Virus record (IMG/VR): IMGVR_UViG_3300012353_000004 | Coordinates: 1-45,512 of that record | Source: a virus | Length of the DNA: 45,512 bases | Reading direction: 5' to 3' (one strand) | Part shown: one piece after another, positions 3,967 to 43,976 of the stretch | Layout: the number at the start of each line of letters is the position of its first letter | Position numbering within the stretch: position 1 is the first letter of the stretch | Notes under the pieces: generated by a model | Told to the model about the DNA's origin: nothing | Seen by the model: the letters and a program-made list of their open reading frames with translations, nothing else | The model's database searches: none | Translations under genes and position numbers: made by a program

Positions 3967-4031
3967 GAAAACCCCCGACCTGTTGTCCATTGAACAGTAT
4001 TGTCCATTGAACAGACAGGCCAGGGGTTTTC
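3967..4031. terminator. bidirectional-type terminator with a tandem repeat in its loop
   Basis: GAAAACCCC...CCTGT at 3967-3983 pairs with ACAGG...GGGGTTTTC at 4015-4031 (15 of 17 positions). Both ends carry A4/T4 runs, so it can work in either direction; leftward it closes the transcript of the 4590 and 4174 genes. The loop holds two copies of TTGTCCATTGAACAG (3983-3997 and 4000-4014), an unusual insert for a terminator. Confidence 0.8.
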
Positions 4032-25777: not shown

Positions 25778-25985
25778 AGTAGCTATGTCTACAATAGGGT
25801 CAGCAGCTGCTAGTATTGTAATAGCCATCCTCAATCAAGTTACAACCAATGCATCTATGCTAGGAGCAATACCAGCCTGGTTGCAGTTTGTTTTAATAGT
25901 AGTTATTCCTCCTCTGGTAACTTGGCTTGGAGGCTATGCTATGCCTTCACCAACTTCTAGTGTCAGTAAAGGATTCAATAAATGA
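25758..25985 (+). CDS. two-helix holin candidate, 75 aa
   Basis: Two hydrophobic helices: IGSAAASIVIAILNQVT and WLQFVLIVVIPPLVTWLGGYA, separated by a short loop, then a short charged tail. This topology and size, with the nearby lysozyme, fit a class II-type holin. It overlaps the next start by ATGA. Confidence 0.65.
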   Translation: MTVVEIKVAMSTIGSAAASIVIAILNQVTTNASMLGAIPAWLQFVLIVVIPPLVTWLGGYAMPSPTSSVSKGFNK

Positions 25986-26281
25986 AGGACTTGATCCTAG
26001 CACGTGAGGTTGATGGAACTATTTGGGTCGGTAATGGTGTACAACGCCGACATATAGAGGACACTGGAGAGTTAGGAGGTCTTCAGTATTGGATTAGTCA
26101 AAAAGGTGGAGATTCTACTCTTCACGATGGTTGGACAGATATTCGTGTACTCGGTCAAGATGTTAACAAAGTCTCTTCGATCCCAGTAAACATTGACTAC
26201 GAGAAATTTGTTACTGATGTTGTTGATAGGTTATCTGAAAAACTCCATACATTACGGTTTGACTCAGTACAGAGTAATTAA
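25982..26281 (+). CDS. hypothetical protein with short beta motif, 99 aa
   Basis: KDLILAREVDGTIWVGNGV with RRHIEDTGELGGLQYWI: a short beta/turn module that recurs at the end of various actinophage lysis or tail proteins in my recollection. The second half is helical (VDRLSEKLHTLRF). Role unknown; last gene before the whiB promoter. Confidence 0.6.
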   Translation: MKDLILAREVDGTIWVGNGVQRRHIEDTGELGGLQYWISQKGGDSTLHDGWTDIRVLGQDVNKVSSIPVNIDYEKFVTDVVDRLSEKLHTLRFDSVQSN

Positions 26282-26286
26282 GAAAT

Positions 26287-26315
26287 TTGACATTTGAGTT
26301 AACGTGTGTTAACAT
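26287..26315 (+). promoter_or_regulatory. leaderless promoter and operator of the whiB-like gene
   Basis: TTGACA (26287-26292), 17-bp spacer, TAACAT (26310-26315), six bases, ATG at 26322. The +1 predicted 7 nt after the -10 is the ATG itself, so the mRNA would lack a leader. GTTAAC at 26298-26303 and 26308-26313, 4 bp apart, overlaps the spacer and -10: an operator that would block RNA polymerase. Confidence 0.75.
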
Positions 26316-26321
26316 TACTTC

Positions 26322-26681
26322 ATGGAAAGTATTTTTAAATGGGCCAAGAGAGCCAAATGTAGAAATGAAGGTATCTTACAAGAGAAGCTAAGTAAAAAGT
26401 ACTGCACAGACTGTCCTGTCATTGGTCTGTGCAGTACTTATGCAATTGTACATAACGAAGAAGGAATTTGGGGTGGTATGTCAGAGAAGGATAGAAAGTG
26501 TTTATCTCCTGATTTTGTATCTATTCTGACGAATCAGTATCAGAAGGAAGGTCTTCTTGAAAACCGTTCAATTGATCCTTTAGAATCTCTAATGCACCTG
26601 GCGGTACCACAGCTGGCGCATATTTACCCCAGCGTTCAGACTGATCCTTATCAGGACTCCACTTTATCCCAATCTGCTTAA
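26322..26681 (+). CDS. whiB: WhiB-family transcription factor
   Basis: 119 aa. The four Fe-S cysteines are C13, C28, C31 and C37 (C-x14-C-x2-C-x5-C), followed by GIWGG (48-52), the turn of WhiB proteins that contacts sigma factor. Actinobacteria and their phages use these Fe-S proteins with sigma-A to control transcription. The conserved domain ends near residue 65; residues 67-119 are antisense to the convergent gene and probably carry little function. It could reprogram host or late phage transcription, or mimic host WhiB to block superinfection (inference). It has its own promoter. Confidence 0.9.
   Translation: MESIFKWAKRAKCRNEGILQEKLSKKYCTDCPVIGLCSTYAIVHNEEGIWGGMSEKDRKCLSPDFVSILTNQYQKEGLLENRSIDPLESLMHLAVPQLAHIYPSVQTDPYQDSTLSQSA
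26394..26439 (-). terminator. leftward intrinsic terminator embedded in whiB
   Basis: AAGTACTGCACAGAC (26397-26411) and GTCTGTGCAGTACTT (26425-26439) are perfect 15-bp inverted repeats, 13-nt loop, covering the Cys28-Cys37 codons. On the minus strand the stem is followed at once by TTTTTACTT, the classical U tract. It lies just past the stop (26521) of the last leftward gene. Confidence 0.85.
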
Positions 26682-26985
26682 GTGATTCAGCAGCACAACC
26701 TATAGAACAAAAAGAAATACTGTCAACATTCCATGAATATGCAAAAATTTTGTGACACCATTTACATTCTTTTTCTTTAAAACCAGCTCCATTAGTACTA
26801 AAATAGATGTGGACACTCTCAGCTTCTCTTAGCTTATCGTCCCTAGTTTCAGCTGGTTTTTCACTTGAGGCAGCTTGCAAATCAGCTACTTGTTCAGCTG
26901 ACACACCCATTGCTGCTAGTAGTTCAGCAGCTTTGTCGAGAGTCCGTTTCCTGACGGTCTCCTGACTTAGTTTGCCTCGTCCCAT
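26521..26985 (-). CDS. hypothetical protein with CxxC zinc site, 154 aa (last leftward gene)
   Basis: N-terminal helices (VRKRTLDKAAELLAAMG, AEQVADLQAAS) suggest a DNA- or protein-binding unit. Middle: ECKWCHKIFAYSW and FCSIGC form a C-x2-C ... C-x3-C site. C-terminal GIKWSPDKDQSERWGKYAP and PPGALEIL recur in actinophage proteins. Its 3' 161 bp overlap the whiB tail in the opposite strand, a tail-to-tail overlap that is common in convergent phage arms. Function unknown. Confidence 0.75.
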   Translation of the reverse strand: MGRGKLSQETVRKRTLDKAAELLAAMGVSAEQVADLQAASSEKPAETRDDKLREAESVHIYFSTNGAGFKEKECKWCHKIFAYSWNVDSISFCSIGCAAESLKQIGIKWSPDKDQSERWGKYAPAVVPPGALEILKDQLNGFQEDLPSDTDSSE

Positions 26986-28182: not shown

Positions 28183-28213
28183 GGTCGGAGCCCTCTGATC
28201 CAGGGCTCCGACC
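28183..28213 (-). terminator. 12-bp perfect hairpin upstream of a gene
   Basis: GGTCGGAGCCCT (28183-28194) pairs with AGGGCTCCGACC (28202-28213), 7-nt loop, very GC-rich. No U tract follows on either strand, and the next leftward gene starts 21 nt later. Best read as an attenuator or mRNA-processing site. Confidence 0.6.
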
Positions 28214-30585: not shown

Positions 30586-32320
30586 ATGCTTGGTTCGTTC
30601 CCCACTTATGGACATCAACTCTGAATTTGACTCCAAAGTCTTTGTCTTCTTCGACATTCTCCATAACGCGTTTAATCTCAGGGATGTACTCGTGCTCTTT
30701 TCCATTTTCAATCTCAGTGACAATAGAATCGTGAACTTGAAGATTGAGAATACAGGAAGGCGTAAACAGTCCTGCCTTCTTGACAGCTAAGGTCCGTCGC
30801 TTAACAATTTCGAAGGCCCCTCCTTGCATAGCCGCATTACCAGCTTTGTGCAACTCTGAAGCCCATGGGAAGTGCCTACGCCTGCCTGTCCAGTATTTAA
30901 TATATCCATTCTCTCTGGCTTTTCGTTCAGCAAGTCTATCAAGTTCTAAGAATCCTGGATACTTCCTGAAATAGTTATCAATAATAACTTGCGCTGCAAC
31001 ATCACTCACACCAAAGACAGTAGAAACTCTATTCTTTCTACCTCCATAAGAGATAGTATAATTAAGAGTCTTGACTGGATCTCTTTGCATCCCGAGATCA
31101 GCAGCCATCTCATTAAAAATATCCCGTGATTCATCGTTAAAAATATCAATCAGGTTTTGCTGGTTAGCATACGCTGCCTTCAGTCTAAACTCAAGCTGAG
31201 AAAAGTCAAACTCCCAGAGCGTATAACCTGGCCGAGCAATAAATGCTTGCTTAAGTTTACCGTTCCAGTCCTTCTCAGATGTTTTAGGAATCTGGTGTAA
31301 GATAGACGCGGACAGCCGACACGTTTTAGTACCATGCTGTTTGAATGAGGTTCGGAACCGGCCGTCGTGACTAAGCTTTTCTAGATACGGTTTATAGTTA
31401 GAGCTAGTTGTTTTTTGCCAACCCCTGTAGGCCATAATTTGCTTAGCTCTATGATCATTATTTCTTTCTAATAATTCATCATAAATGGCCATATGTTCTT
31501 TATCAAAAGAATAACGACCAGATTTCCCCTTTCGACCTACAGGGGGTAGTTTAAGTTCCTCTAGAAGGAACTTACCTAGTTCATTAGGAGAACCAGGATT
31601 AAAGCCGAGACCTTTCTTAATGTCTGACATGATATGGAGACCGCGCTCCAATTCATGTTCACAGAAAGACTGATCAATCAGAATCCCATTATCTTCCATC
31701 TCCCCCAATAACACAGCAAAGTCTTGTTCAACACCCCAGAGTTCTCCATCAAAGTCTTGTTCTTGAAATTCAGGGAGAAGTTTGTGGAAAAGTTCTTCAG
31801 TAATAAATGCATCGTTCTGACCATAAGGTCTAATTATTTCAACAGGTACAAAATCCCAGCCAAATGCCAGGATAATTTTATTCATCAGTTCAGAGGAGCG
31901 TTTAGGTTCTCCCCCACTAAACTTACTCAACCAATCTAACTCTTTGCTAGGAAGATTCTCATTAACCATGTGAGCCATAAGCTGAGTATCATAAAATTTA
32001 CCAGTATAGTTAATATCTAGGTTATTCAAAGACCGTAGATCGTGCTTAGCGTTATGAAATACTAAACAAGAATGGTTCTCAATAACATTCTTTATCTGAG
32101 GGAACCATTCTTGAGGTAGATTATTTCCAAATCGTTGATTGAAGGCATAGTAATCACCTACTCCCCCAGCACTGATAGACAAACCCCAGGTAGTACTAAA
32201 AGGATGGTTCAGGGTGCCTTCAGTGTCCACTGTAAGATACTCAGATTCTTGAGCTTGCTTACAGTGTTTGTCGAACTCTTCCTTACTGAGGTAGCTCAAC
32301 TTGTTCCCAGGCGGGTTCAC
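30569..32320 (-). CDS. polA: family A DNA polymerase with 3'-5' exonuclease
   Basis: 583 aa. Exonuclease: VDTEG (Asp32, Glu34), FHNAKHD and YGQNDAFI. Polymerase: motif A EFDFSQLEFR, motif B RDPVKTLNYTISYGG, motif C LQVHDSIVTE. In the O-helix the residue equal to Phe762 of E. coli Pol I is Tyr (K-T-L-N-Y), as in T7 polymerase. No 5' nuclease domain. This would replicate the phage genome with the primase-helicase gene just upstream. A 38-nt overlap with the 93-aa gene fits. Confidence 0.95.
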   Translation of the reverse strand: MNPPGNKLSYLSKEEFDKHCKQAQESEYLTVDTEGTLNHPFSTTWGLSISAGGVGDYYAFNQRFGNNLPQEWFPQIKNVIENHSCLVFHNAKHDLRSLNNLDINYTGKFYDTQLMAHMVNENLPSKELDWLSKFSGGEPKRSSELMNKIILAFGWDFVPVEIIRPYGQNDAFITEELFHKLLPEFQEQDFDGELWGVEQDFAVLLGEMEDNGILIDQSFCEHELERGLHIMSDIKKGLGFNPGSPNELGKFLLEELKLPPVGRKGKSGRYSFDKEHMAIYDELLERNNDHRAKQIMAYRGWQKTTSSNYKPYLEKLSHDGRFRTSFKQHGTKTCRLSASILHQIPKTSEKDWNGKLKQAFIARPGYTLWEFDFSQLEFRLKAAYANQQNLIDIFNDESRDIFNEMAADLGMQRDPVKTLNYTISYGGRKNRVSTVFGVSDVAAQVIIDNYFRKYPGFLELDRLAERKARENGYIKYWTGRRRHFPWASELHKAGNAAMQGGAFEIVKRRTLAVKKAGLFTPSCILNLQVHDSIVTEIENGKEHEYIPEIKRVMENVEEDKDFGVKFRVDVHKWGTNQAYEPQP

Positions 32321-32564
32321 TAACCATTTTTTCTAGCTTGATATTACGTACAAAATCTTTATCTTGATCAGCCCACATTTTTAAGACCTTAGCCTGATCC
32401 CAAGGGTTGTCAGTTTCTCTAGTAACTAAATGCCAATCTTCATCTGGAATCTGAGAATTAGGTGTTATTTGAGTTACATTTTTGTAGAACGCTGGATCAG
32501 CATTACAGTACTTGTGTAATGCTGATGTGTATACAGTTTCAAAACTTAGCCTATAAGTACTCAT
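32283..32564 (-). CDS. hypothetical protein, 93 aa, between primase-helicase and polymerase
   Basis: Sits between the primase-helicase and polymerase genes, overlapping both (ATGA with the former). Starts MSTYRLSFETVYTSALHKYC and contains EDWHLVTRETDNPWDQAKVL. A small replication-associated protein is likely from position only; its own function is unknown. Confidence 0.65.
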   Translation of the reverse strand: MSTYRLSFETVYTSALHKYCNADPAFYKNVTQITPNSQIPDEDWHLVTRETDNPWDQAKVLKMWADQDKDFVRNIKLEKMVSEPAWEQVELPQ

Positions 32565-34464: not shown

Positions 34465-34563
34465 CTAACCTTTATCTGTTTGTCCGCCTAAGTTCCTCCT
34501 TGTCATATCCTCTGCTATTTCTACTGCATCCTCGTACTCATTGATTTCTTCTTCAGTTGGCAT
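34465..34563 (-). CDS. very small acidic protein, 32 aa
   Basis: ATG at 34563 shares a base with the uracil-DNA glycosylase stop (TAATG); stop TAG at 34465-34467. Acidic helix MPTEEEINEYEDAVEIAEDM then TRRNLGGQTDKG. Coupled by overlap; coding status moderately likely. Confidence 0.45.
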   Translation of the reverse strand: MPTEEEINEYEDAVEIAEDMTRRNLGGQTDKG

Positions 34564-35132
34564 TAGGCAACTTTCATTGTCAGATATGCTGCTAATCTAA
34601 TATAACCTTCTTTAACTAAATGTTTCCGCATAGGTTGATAGCTAATAAAAGCAGGATGGTACAAGGGAACAAACCGGCCCTCCAGTAAGTCTCCATGAAA
34701 TTGGGTTACGTCAGTAATGTCTGGAAACACTGCATGAATAGCTGTACGTCCACATAAGCCGATGATTACAGGCTCTACGATATCAATCTCTTTAAGAAGA
34801 TATCCTCTACTATCTTCTATTTCCTCTTCTGTCGGTGTAACACTACCTCCTATTTGCTCCGGCATGTACTTGACTACGTTGGTAAGAAATACATCGTCTG
34901 AGGCAATCTTAACATCTTGAAGAATGTTATTAAGATTCTCTCCTGAACGTCCAACAAATGGTACACCTTTTGCATTTTCAAGTTTACCGGGAGCTTCACC
35001 AACAAGCATGAGATTAGCCTTAAGCGGACCGGCTCCTGGTACAAACTTCCTTCGTAAAGCGCGTAAATGGCTAAACTTCTCATCTACAACGTAGCTATCA
35101 TAAAGAGCCTTTAACTCTTCCATTTTACCCAT
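34563..35132 (-). CDS. uracil-DNA glycosylase (family 4-like)
   Basis: ATG 35132 (MGKMEELKALYDSYVV) has GGAG nine bases upstream; the longer frame to 35363 runs across the tRNA gene and is rejected. Motifs: LVGEAPGKLENAKG and GVPFVGRSGENL (uracil-binding pocket), VVKYMP, and YHPAFISY near the end. About 189 aa. The N-terminal C-x2-C of family 4 enzymes that holds the Fe-S cluster is absent here, so it may be a cluster-free variant. It removes uracil from DNA and complements dUTPase. Confidence 0.85.
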   Translation of the reverse strand: MGKMEELKALYDSYVVDEKFSHLRALRRKFVPGAGPLKANLMLVGEAPGKLENAKGVPFVGRSGENLNNILQDVKIASDDVFLTNVVKYMPEQIGGSVTPTEEEIEDSRGYLLKEIDIVEPVIIGLCGRTAIHAVFPDITDVTQFHGDLLEGRFVPLYHPAFISYQPMRKHLVKEGYIRLAAYLTMKVA

Positions 35133-35168
35133 CCGCACTTCTCCTATAATCTGCACCCGATAAATAAG

Positions 35169-35243
35169 TACCCTAGGAGGGATTCGAACCCTCACTGTAC
35201 TTCCTTTTAAGAGAAGCTCCTCTACCATTTGGGATACTAGGGT
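35169..35243 (-). tRNA. tRNA with anticodon UAA (Leu) and short variable loop
   Basis: Minus strand, 75 nt. Acceptor ACCCTAG/CTAGGGT, D-arm with GG at the usual place, anticodon stem CTTCT/GGAAG (one U-G), loop CTTAAAA giving UAA, T-arm GAGGG TTCGAAT CCCTC, discriminator A. By anticodon it reads UUA (Leu). Bacterial Leu tRNAs have a long variable arm; here it is only 6 nt, so the charging enzyme or isotype may differ. CCA not encoded. Confidence 0.85.
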
Positions 35244-35269
35244 GGCTCTGTGGTTGCTTATTAATGGAT

Positions 35270-35331
35270 GAGCTGATTCCCCATCAGCTCGCTGTAGCTC
35301 CCAATTTAGGATACGCGGGGATTCTATCCTA
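35270..35331 (-). other. two RNA hairpins between SSB and tRNA genes
   Basis: GAGCTGAT/ATCAGCTC (35270-35290, 5-nt loop) and TAGGATA/TATCCTA (35307-35331, 11-nt loop). No credible protein frame in 35244-35366. Could guide processing of the tRNA transcript or be a decayed third tRNA; I could not fold one. Confidence 0.5.
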
Positions 35332-35366
35332 GGCTGGCCCTCTATAAACCACATCCCGCCCATTAA

Positions 35367-40803: not shown

Positions 40804-40922
40804 TAATCGTCATCTCCATCATAAGTTCCTCCACAAGTCCCACAACCACCTTTTCCTGGTGAACCATGACACGCTACACAGTCAGGGTCACCGTCTGGCT
40901 TCGGGATTACTAATAGGATCAT
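40803..40922 (-). CDS. very small zinc-binding protein, 39 aa
   Basis: ATG at 40922 shares a base with the LuxR-like stop (TAATG). MILLVIPKPDGDPDC, then CVACHGSPGKGGCGTCGG: C-x2-C twice, one zinc knuckle, acidic end. Coupled to the regulators on both sides. Confidence 0.6.
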   Translation of the reverse strand: MILLVIPKPDGDPDCVACHGSPGKGGCGTCGGTYDGDDD

Positions 40923-41287
40923 TAGTAGTACCCAGCCCTAGCCAGTATAACAGCCAACTCTGTTCTATTTCTAGCCTTTGTCTTCTTCATGATGTGTCTG
41001 AAATGAGTTTTTATAGTATCTTCAGACAACTGTAGCTTATCACCTATCTGCTGATTGCTAAGACCTAGCGGCAAGCACAAGATTACTTTTACTTGCTGAC
41101 TACTGAGACCGTAGTCCGGTGAATATTTATCTGAACGTGGTTTTTCAACTACTGGTTGTACATAGTAAATATGAACTTCAGTAAATCCCTTCCCTAAATC
41201 CTCAGTTTCAGCACTAATTATATGACTACCTGATACAATCTTAGATGGACTGGGCCAGTTTCCTGCAATTTCGTATCGAACAATCAC
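40922..41287 (-). CDS. LuxR/GerE-type HTH regulator, 121 aa
   Basis: GTG at 41287. Residues ~58-119 are a LuxR DNA-binding domain: LSSQQVKVILCLPLGLSNQQ then IGDKLQLSEDTIKTHFRHIM and KTKARNRTELA. The N-terminal ~50 residues (YEIAGNWPSPSKI, VHIYYV) form a small beta domain that is also the whole of the next upstream protein (41291-41473). No phosphoreceiver; it probably acts as a constitutive or protein-controlled regulator. Confidence 0.8.
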   Translation of the reverse strand: MIVRYEIAGNWPSPSKIVSGSHIISAETEDLGKGFTEVHIYYVQPVVEKPRSDKYSPDYGLSSQQVKVILCLPLGLSNQQIGDKLQLSEDTIKTHFRHIMKKTKARNRTELAVILARAGYY

Positions 41288-41994: not shown

Positions 41995-43976
41995 TAGATT
42001 TCACCTTCACGGAGGGCACGCAAAACTTCTTGATAGAGATCAGCCTTCTCGGCGAAGCCACTAATAATTTCTTGCTTCTGTTCAATGAGTTGTTTCATCC
42101 ATGTGTCAATAGTTCCCTCAACCATGATACGATGGATGTAAGTGTCCTGCTTGGTACCGATACGATCAACGCGACCTTCTGCTTGCTCTTCTCCAGCCGG
42201 ATTCCAAGGTCTATCTAGCATGATCTCATGAGTAGCTCTATTGAGGTTCAGACCTGTTCCCATAGCTTTATAGTTACCAAGAAGAATATCCCACTTAGGA
42301 TTCTTCGGTGCAGTCTTAGGGTCGAAGTCTAGTTGAGCATCGTTCTTGAGATAGCTAGGTGTATTCCCAGTATACGCTAGAGATCTGCTGCCTAGTCTTC
42401 GCTGTAGTTCATAAAGAGGATCATTGAACATAGAGAAGGCAAGAGATGCTTCACCTTCTTCTTGAATCTCTCGCAGTAATTCTTCAGCCTTATCTACTTT
42501 AACTGATTCATGTACATTGAGACGGGCAACATGATACTCATTGCCATACTCATCTTTACGTTTGAGTTCAATACCAGCTGGCCATACGAGAACCTGACGT
42601 AAACGCATGAGTACAACAATCATGTATTGCATAGCCATAATACCGTCAGCACCCTTTTCAGGGTCTAATACTAACTGTGCATACTGACGTACTTGGTTAT
42701 AAGCCTTGAACTGTTCTTTATAGTTCTCTTTGAATTCATCAAGACTGATGACATGATCGATAGGTGTAGCAGGTGGAATGATAATACCTGCTGCCTTACG
42801 ATCACGAGCAACAAATCGAGGACCAATCTTTTGAACTAGTTTATCCTCAGCTCCCCATGTCCACACCCAACGACCAGACAGAGACTTTCGACAAAAGTCC
42901 CGCAAGTAAGTCTTCTCATCTGTGAAGTTTTTGGGATCAATAGCACGAAGATGTGGGAACAATTCTTGAGGCTTATTAATAATAGGTGTACCTGTCATAG
43001 GCAATACATTCTTCACTGAACAGAACTCAGTAATAAATGCTTCGTGCCCACAGATTTCACAGGTACCATAATTGAAATCTTCAATAGACACAGAGTCTAC
43101 AGGTAGTGGCTTTTCTGGACTACAGGAAGGACAGATGTTCAGACCGAATCGGAGTGATTGAATCCCGCGGCTGATACTTGTAGTCCATGTCATAGCTTTA
43201 TGAGCTTCGTCGTAGACAAGAGTATCTGGAAGCAATTCATTCAAGCTTGCAATAAGACTTGAGTCTCGCCGCCATGCCTCATAATTGAGAACGAGATTGA
43301 AGGCAGTGAGATTCTTTAATGGACCAAATACAAAATCCCGCTCGGCTCTCGTCATCTTGCCAATCTTTAGAATTGGTCGATGAGGAGTCCACATCTTGAT
43401 CTCACGAATAAAGTTATCCATTGTGTCAGACGGACAAATGAAGATAACCTTCTGTGCATCAAGGAGATCACAGTAGATAAGACTGGTGAGAGACTTACCG
43501 AGTCCTCTCTTATCCCCTAGTAAACCAGTCTTCGCAGCAGCTAGTTGTATGGCACCATCAATCTGATATTCGAAAGCTCCCATGTCATCTGTACGATTTT
43601 CTTTACGCCATGGAGCTTTAAGACAGGCTTCTCTAAAGGCTTCAAGTTCAGCTAGATACTTGGCTTGAACTCTCTCGGCGTCCTCGGCACGAGAGAGTTC
43701 ACGTCTCAGTCTAGCTAGCTCATCGAGATAGTCTCTATTGCGCCGTGAGATATCTCTTACAGCTGCATCGGCTGTTCTGAAATTTTGGGCAGCATCAGAC
43801 AAACCCTTGGCGATTAAATCTAATTGCTGTCTGAGGTCATCATAAACCTTTTGATGCTGGTTCATGACGTCTTTATTTATTTTAGCTGCATCTTTTGCTA
43901 GTTTACTTTGTTCATTATTAATTTCAATTTCAGACTCTAGCTTAACTATTTTATTTATAATCTCATCTTTATTCAT
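41994..43976 (-). CDS. SNF2-family DNA helicase/translocase, 660 aa
   Basis: N-terminal coiled coil (residues ~1-118). Helicase core: Walker A GDKRGLGKS (154-162), DEAH box VYDEAHKA (256-259), MTGTPI (motif III), and C-terminal GLNLNRATHEIML then EGRVDRIGTKQ (motifs V and VI). A C-x2-C ... C-x2-C segment near 280-310 (CPSCSPEK, CEICGHE) is a zinc-like insert. SNF2 translocases move on duplex DNA; phage copies may help replication, recombination or remodel host nucleoids. Next to a promoter-led early block. Confidence 0.9.
   Translation of the reverse strand: MNKDEIINKIVKLESEIEINNEQSKLAKDAAKINKDVMNQHQKVYDDLRQQLDLIAKGLSDAAQNFRTADAAVRDISRRNRDYLDELARLRRELSRAEDAERVQAKYLAELEAFREACLKAPWRKENRTDDMGAFEYQIDGAIQLAAAKTGLLGDKRGLGKSLTSLIYCDLLDAQKVIFICPSDTMDNFIREIKMWTPHRPILKIGKMTRAERDFVFGPLKNLTAFNLVLNYEAWRRDSSLIASLNELLPDTLVYDEAHKAMTWTTSISRGIQSLRFGLNICPSCSPEKPLPVDSVSIEDFNYGTCEICGHEAFITEFCSVKNVLPMTGTPIINKPQELFPHLRAIDPKNFTDEKTYLRDFCRKSLSGRWVWTWGAEDKLVQKIGPRFVARDRKAAGIIIPPATPIDHVISLDEFKENYKEQFKAYNQVRQYAQLVLDPEKGADGIMAMQYMIVVLMRLRQVLVWPAGIELKRKDEYGNEYHVARLNVHESVKVDKAEELLREIQEEGEASLAFSMFNDPLYELQRRLGSRSLAYTGNTPSYLKNDAQLDFDPKTAPKNPKWDILLGNYKAMGTGLNLNRATHEIMLDRPWNPAGEEQAEGRVDRIGTKQDTYIHRIMVEGTIDTWMKQLIEQKQEIISGFAEKADLYQEVLRALREGEI

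Follow-up and report, generated by a model that had tools for sequence, protein, structure and literature searches.

A predicted intrinsic terminator of a leftward phage operon lies within the cysteine-cluster codons of the convergent whiB gene

A perfect 15-bp hairpin lies within the whiB gene of the virus described here, where it spans codons 26–40 of 119 and takes in the codons for the Fe–S cysteines C28 and C37, with that for C31 at the edge of the loop. Judging from the sequence, we consider it likely that this hairpin is the Rho-independent (intrinsic) terminator of the leftward replication (early) operon, situated inside the convergent whiB coding sequence. The window, by which we mean the whole stretch of DNA analysed, is a 45.5-kb virus record of 41 % GC, and together with two relatives, G002 (locus L002, 47,954 bp) and G019 (locus L003, 23,122 bp), it makes up the set of records that carry the stem, all three phages being known from metagenomes alone. 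Features at this locus are listed in Table 1.

Table 1. Features of the window at the convergent junction
Feature	Position	Strand	Comment
Last gene of rightward late operon	25982..26281	+	Ends 40 nt upstream of whiB
whiB promoter	26287..26315	+	TTGACA-17-TAACAT, TGT before -10; promoter-like
whiB	26322..26681	+	119 aa, PF02467; C13/C28/C31/C37, GIWGG
T run (TTTTT)	26394..26398 (read 26398-26394)	-	Lys25-Lys26 codons on the + strand
Predicted intrinsic terminator of leftward (early/replication) operon	26394..26439	-	From whole-record terminator scan
Stem arm 1, AAGTACTGCACAGAC	26397..26411	both	Encodes WhiB K26-Y-C28-T-D30 on the + strand
Loop, 13 nt	26412..26424	both	C31 P V I codons; varies among relatives, arms kept
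Stem arm 2, GTCTGTGCAGTACTT	26425..26439	both	Encodes WhiB G35-L-C37-S-T39 on the + strand
Last gene of leftward operon	26521..26985	-	CxxC..CxxxC, putative zinc-binding protein
Antisense overlap of whiB and leftward gene 3′ ends	26521..26681	both	161 nt

The packaging, structural and lysis genes are oriented rightward and occupy approximately 5.0–26.3 kb of the window, and the replication genes run leftward from 45.5 to 26.5 kb, such that the two sets meet near 26.5 kb; the hosts of the phage group carrying the whiB-embedded stem are probably actinobacteria. There is almost no non-coding space where the two sets meet, and the stop codon of the last leftward gene lies inside whiB, 81 nt before the stem. 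Since no non-coding DNA is free at the junction, a terminator here must sit inside a gene. The antisense overlap is kept in all three records, being 155 nt long in both G002 and G019. The leftward operon also encodes a LuxR/GerE-type helix–turn–helix protein (40922–41287, − strand; PF00196, E-value 8.8 × 10−15). We note in addition that the N-terminal part of the ORF at 34563–35363 (− strand) crosses a tRNA-Leu gene (35168–35243), and the true start of this ORF is thus probably downstream of the tRNA.

The original prediction described a perfect 15-bp stem with five Ts on the minus strand among the cysteine codons of whiB, and this structure is real, although two of the five Ts are inside the stem. 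The arms are 100 % complementary, and the minus-strand sequence following them is TTTTTACTTAGC, in which only three unpaired Ts lie past the full stem (TTTACTTAGC) because the other two pair in its base. The stem is just 47 % GC and the loop is long, both of which count against a terminator. The minus-strand RNA is more stable than its composition predicts, with a folding energy of −23.6 kcal/mol and a z value of −4.9 in the window; the corresponding z values are −7.0 in G002 and −6.6 in G019. Chance and codon bias were considered as origins of the stem and are ruled out by shuffling and recoding: no stem of at least 13 bp appeared in 10 dinucleotide shuffles of the whole window, and a best stem of 12 bp arose a single time in 4000 synonymous recodings of whiB and one of 15 bp not at all, perfect pairing in the observed register being expected in approximately 2.5 × 10−6 of such recodings. 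A search of Rfam gave no known structured RNA family at the hairpin, two tRNAs being the only matches.

The whiB product is a member of the WhiB family, with a Pfam profile match to PF02467 (E-value 2.2 × 10−10; 41.4 bits against a cut-off of 23.6), four cysteines (C13, C28, C31 and C37) that are invariant among seven homologues, and the GIWGG motif. Its ATG sits 6 nt past the −10 element of a promoter-like sequence, and the whiB mRNA is therefore predicted to be leaderless. This promoter (TTGACA-17-TGnTAACnT-ATG) is conserved in the window, G002 and G019, and is the sole site of its type in the window and in G019, G002 having one other. A similar arrangement is seen in Arthrobacter phage Jasmine, and the window copy (26287–26321) also contains GTTAAC-GTGT-GTTAAC. 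The stem begins at nt 76 of the whiB ORF and overlaps neither the start codon nor a ribosome-binding site. It had been suggested that a hairpin over the start-proximal part of the whiB mRNA could control its translation, but beginning 75 nt into a message that is predicted to lack a leader it could not mask initiation, and we do not retain this proposal.

An indication that the stem is itself under selection comes from the comparison of the three records. The WhiB proteins of G002 and G019 are 64 % and 53 % identical to that of the window, and both relatives preserve the gene order and place the stem at the matching codons of the alignment. In G002 the arms are identical to those of the window and the loop differs; at residues shared by these two proteins the codons are identical at 10 of 10 positions in the arms, compared with 19 of 33 elsewhere in the non-overlapping part of the gene. 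In G019 the arms (AAATATTGCACTGACTG and CAGTCAGTGCAATATTT) form 17 bp and three of the 15 pairs are altered in both arms. Pairing is complete over all 15 positions in each of the three sequences and falls to 18–53 % when the partner arm is slid out of register. The left-arm changes in G019 are synonymous third-position substitutions (AAG to AAA, TAC to TAT and ACA to ACT), while the matching changes in the right arm are amino acid replacements (ACT to ATT, T39I; AGT to AAT, S38N; CTG to CAG, L36Q), and a further replacement, G35S, lengthens the stem. Arm 2 is the side on which relatives exchange amino acids with pairing kept. This compensatory pattern is as expected if selection acts on the stem itself; in a covariation test, which is small because the whiB-embedded stem is limited to three records, 17 of 500 shuffles reached the observed value. 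The T run comprises five, six and six Ts on the minus strand of the window and the two relatives respectively, beginning in the last stem pairs, but because it coincides with conserved Lys-Lys codons, its conservation cannot by itself be counted as independent evidence. Searches of viral_contigs with WhiB, leftward-protein, resolvase and terminase queries yielded no carriers of the whiB stem beyond G002 and G019, and no prophage or host-genome relatives were confirmed in genome_contigs.

The viral_contigs scans also gave a further record, G003, whose TerL is 61 % identical to that of the window and in which the leftward gene is present and WhiB was not found. G003 has a 17-bp hairpin of unrelated sequence in the gap of approximately 50 nt between the same two operons, and in the window, G002, G019 and G003 alike the longest perfect hairpin is located at the convergent junction. 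These observations bear on the reading that the palindrome is a feature of the DNA that plays no part in transcription, either a site for protein binding or a quasi-palindrome that template-switch correction keeps perfect as the DNA is replicated. A change in one arm can be transferred to its partner by template switching, which thereby mimics compensatory change, and the paired changes could in principle be explained in this way. Mutation alone does not, however, maintain perfect stems, since the five other long stems in the window have no counterpart of at least 10 bp in G002, and neither the match to the convergent junction in four records nor the unrelated sequence in G003 favours this reading, which we regard as very improbable. 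These five stems, each a perfect 12 bp (1821–1857, 28183–28213, 32067–32113, 32496–32526 and 43666–43701; approximately 0.1 expected), are mostly in coding sequence and without T tails.

The hairpin might alternatively act on the whiB mRNA, as a translational pause, an RNase site or a stability element, with the T run being incidental to the Lys-Lys codons. The stem is within the whiB coding frame, and in the window folding is slightly more favourable for the + strand RNA than for the minus strand (−27.1 versus −23.6 kcal/mol) owing to G–U pairs, both of which are consistent with such a role. In G002 and G019, however, folding is almost as favourable on one strand as on the other, and with three sequences only the G–U asymmetry gives no choice of strand; each of the three records has its T run on the minus strand, and a comparable junction hairpin in G003, where whiB was not detected, is not predicted for a whiB-specific element. 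We therefore consider an action on the whiB message improbable.

The case for a terminator of leftward transcription is strengthened by a d'Aubenton-Carafa-type scan of the whole of the window, G002 and G019 records. G002 and G019 have one positive site each (scores 10.5 and 8.2), in both cases the whiB stem, and the window has two, the whiB stem (1.4, a marginal score) and a site at 3971 (11.6). All of these positives are on the minus strand, with the whiB stem ranking best or second-best in each record, and no better leftward terminator was found at the junction. The top-scoring window site (3967–4031, − strand, leftward) has a long apical part containing two direct copies of CTGTTCAATGGACAA. 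The distances from the leftward stop codon to the stem are 81, 96 and 87 nt in the window and the two relatives, and the element combines a stable hairpin, a T-rich tract 3′ of the stem and a position after the last gene of its unit, as intrinsic terminators do. A leftward terminator in the cysteine-cluster codons of whiB, as originally proposed, is thus well supported as a predicted element by its conservation and compensatory changes, by the polarity of the T run, by its genome-wide rank and by the intergenic hairpin of G003.

The signal is one-sided. The + strand tails are ATGCAATTGT in the window, ATGCGATTGT in G002 and ATGGAATTGT in G019, none with a T run, so that the T tracts on both strands that mark a bidirectional terminator are not present; the whole-record scans gave no + strand positive anywhere in the three records, and no rightward terminator for the late genes or whiB was found in the window. 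The lack of a positive rightward site in any of the three can be accommodated if the stem is a shared two-way terminator gated by translation, which always ends leftward RNA and also ends + strand read-through from the late operon when the whiB start is unused, with ribosomes protecting the leaderless whiB mRNA. In its favour, the + strand forms the hairpin with equal stability, the intergenic hairpin that separates the two operons in G003 is symmetric, and in Streptomyces clavuligerus many structured 3′ ends are without U tracts (PMC8269248). Against this, the + strand has no T run (ATGCAATT, ATGCGATT, ATGGAATT), and the whiB start codon might still work within a long late mRNA; we consider a gated terminator rather unlikely. 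Were it to be correct, the mode of initiation on the RNA would decide whether a single DNA element terminates.

Among more distant phages the junction is organized differently. It had been proposed that relatives that keep WhiB and lose the stem would speak against its role, and the outcome is divided: G002 and G019 keep both, whereas the stem in whiB is absent from five distant WhiB-bearing relatives, namely Jasmine, Cellulosimicrobium phage DS1 (in its cysteine codons), ctEqG8, G006 and G012. Another terminator hairpin is present at the junction in three of these five and none was found in the other two. In Arthrobacter phages Jasmine, Casserole and Adat and in DS1, whiB is at the same junction and overlaps an orthologue of the leftward gene with the motif CxxC...CSxxC...W...W; an antisense overlap is present in the annotation of Jasmine and its relatives too. 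These four phages have intergenic hairpins upstream of whiB, and strong rightward terminators lie on the + strand inside the leftward gene, at codons ~34–49, in Jasmine (L010, 1279–1307; score 16.5) and DS1 (L006, 3579–3623; 25.6), with equivalents of the Jasmine element in L051 and L052. In ctEqG8 whiB is followed by a terminator in intergenic DNA. In G006 and G012 (L040, 3559–4032, and L041) whiB is convergent with, and overlaps, a resolvase-like gene, and no terminator was found at that junction, which weighs against the terminator reading. Over the wider comparison the junction thus usually holds a strong hairpin, the place of which has shifted between an intergenic position, whiB and the gene opposite.

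Under the preferred reading, that of an intrinsic terminator acting on leftward transcripts, RNA polymerase moving leftward would complete the last leftward gene, at whose stop codon the ribosomes would leave, and after a further 81 nt of whiB-antisense RNA the 15-bp hairpin would fold and the U run would free the transcript near 26394–26398. Such a stop would spare the 5′ part of whiB, its promoter and the late operon from antisense transcription. Polymerase on the + strand would be expected to read through, there being no T run after the stem, and ribosomes would hold the hairpin open on that strand, given the predicted translation of whiB from a leaderless message. We infer the stopping of polymerase at the whiB stem, the efficiency of termination and the shielding role.

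Terminators inside opposite-strand ORFs are a class already known: in S. clavuligerus 49 of 1,427 transcript 3′ ends are antisense and inside ORFs of the opposite strand (PMC8269248), and bidirectional terminators at convergent units have been described (Ju et al., 2019, as cited in PMC10503654). The whiB stem resembles the intrinsic terminators of convergent bacterial operons in being a stable hairpin with a U run that is placed between convergent units and would halt convergent transcription, but it differs from them in lying deep in the opposing gene and not near intergenic 3′ ends, and from bidirectional terminators in that its T run is confined to a single strand. It is also unlike the S. 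clavuligerus antisense ends, which are enriched in weakly structured sites (PMC8269248), in being a perfect conserved stem with compensation at the amino acid level. Jasmine, Casserole, Adat and DS1 share with the window the same convergent pair and an intrinsic terminator inside the opposing gene, although in these phages it is the rightward (whiB) terminator that is in the leftward gene and in the window the leftward terminator that is in whiB. What is new is the deep coding position over Fe–S ligand codons, the compensation at the amino acid level and the reciprocal arrangement across the group.

The RNA signal of one strand and the Fe–S ligand region encoded by the other thus appear to constrain each other, providing a compact natural case in which amino acid replacements in WhiB preserve the predicted terminator of the opposite strand. 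It serves as a warning that antisense signals can drive protein evolution in compact phage genomes, and that real terminators will escape programs that look for them in intergenic DNA alone. In orthologous convergent pairs each member may contain the terminator of the other, and the whiB and CxxC-protein pair offers a small comparative test system.
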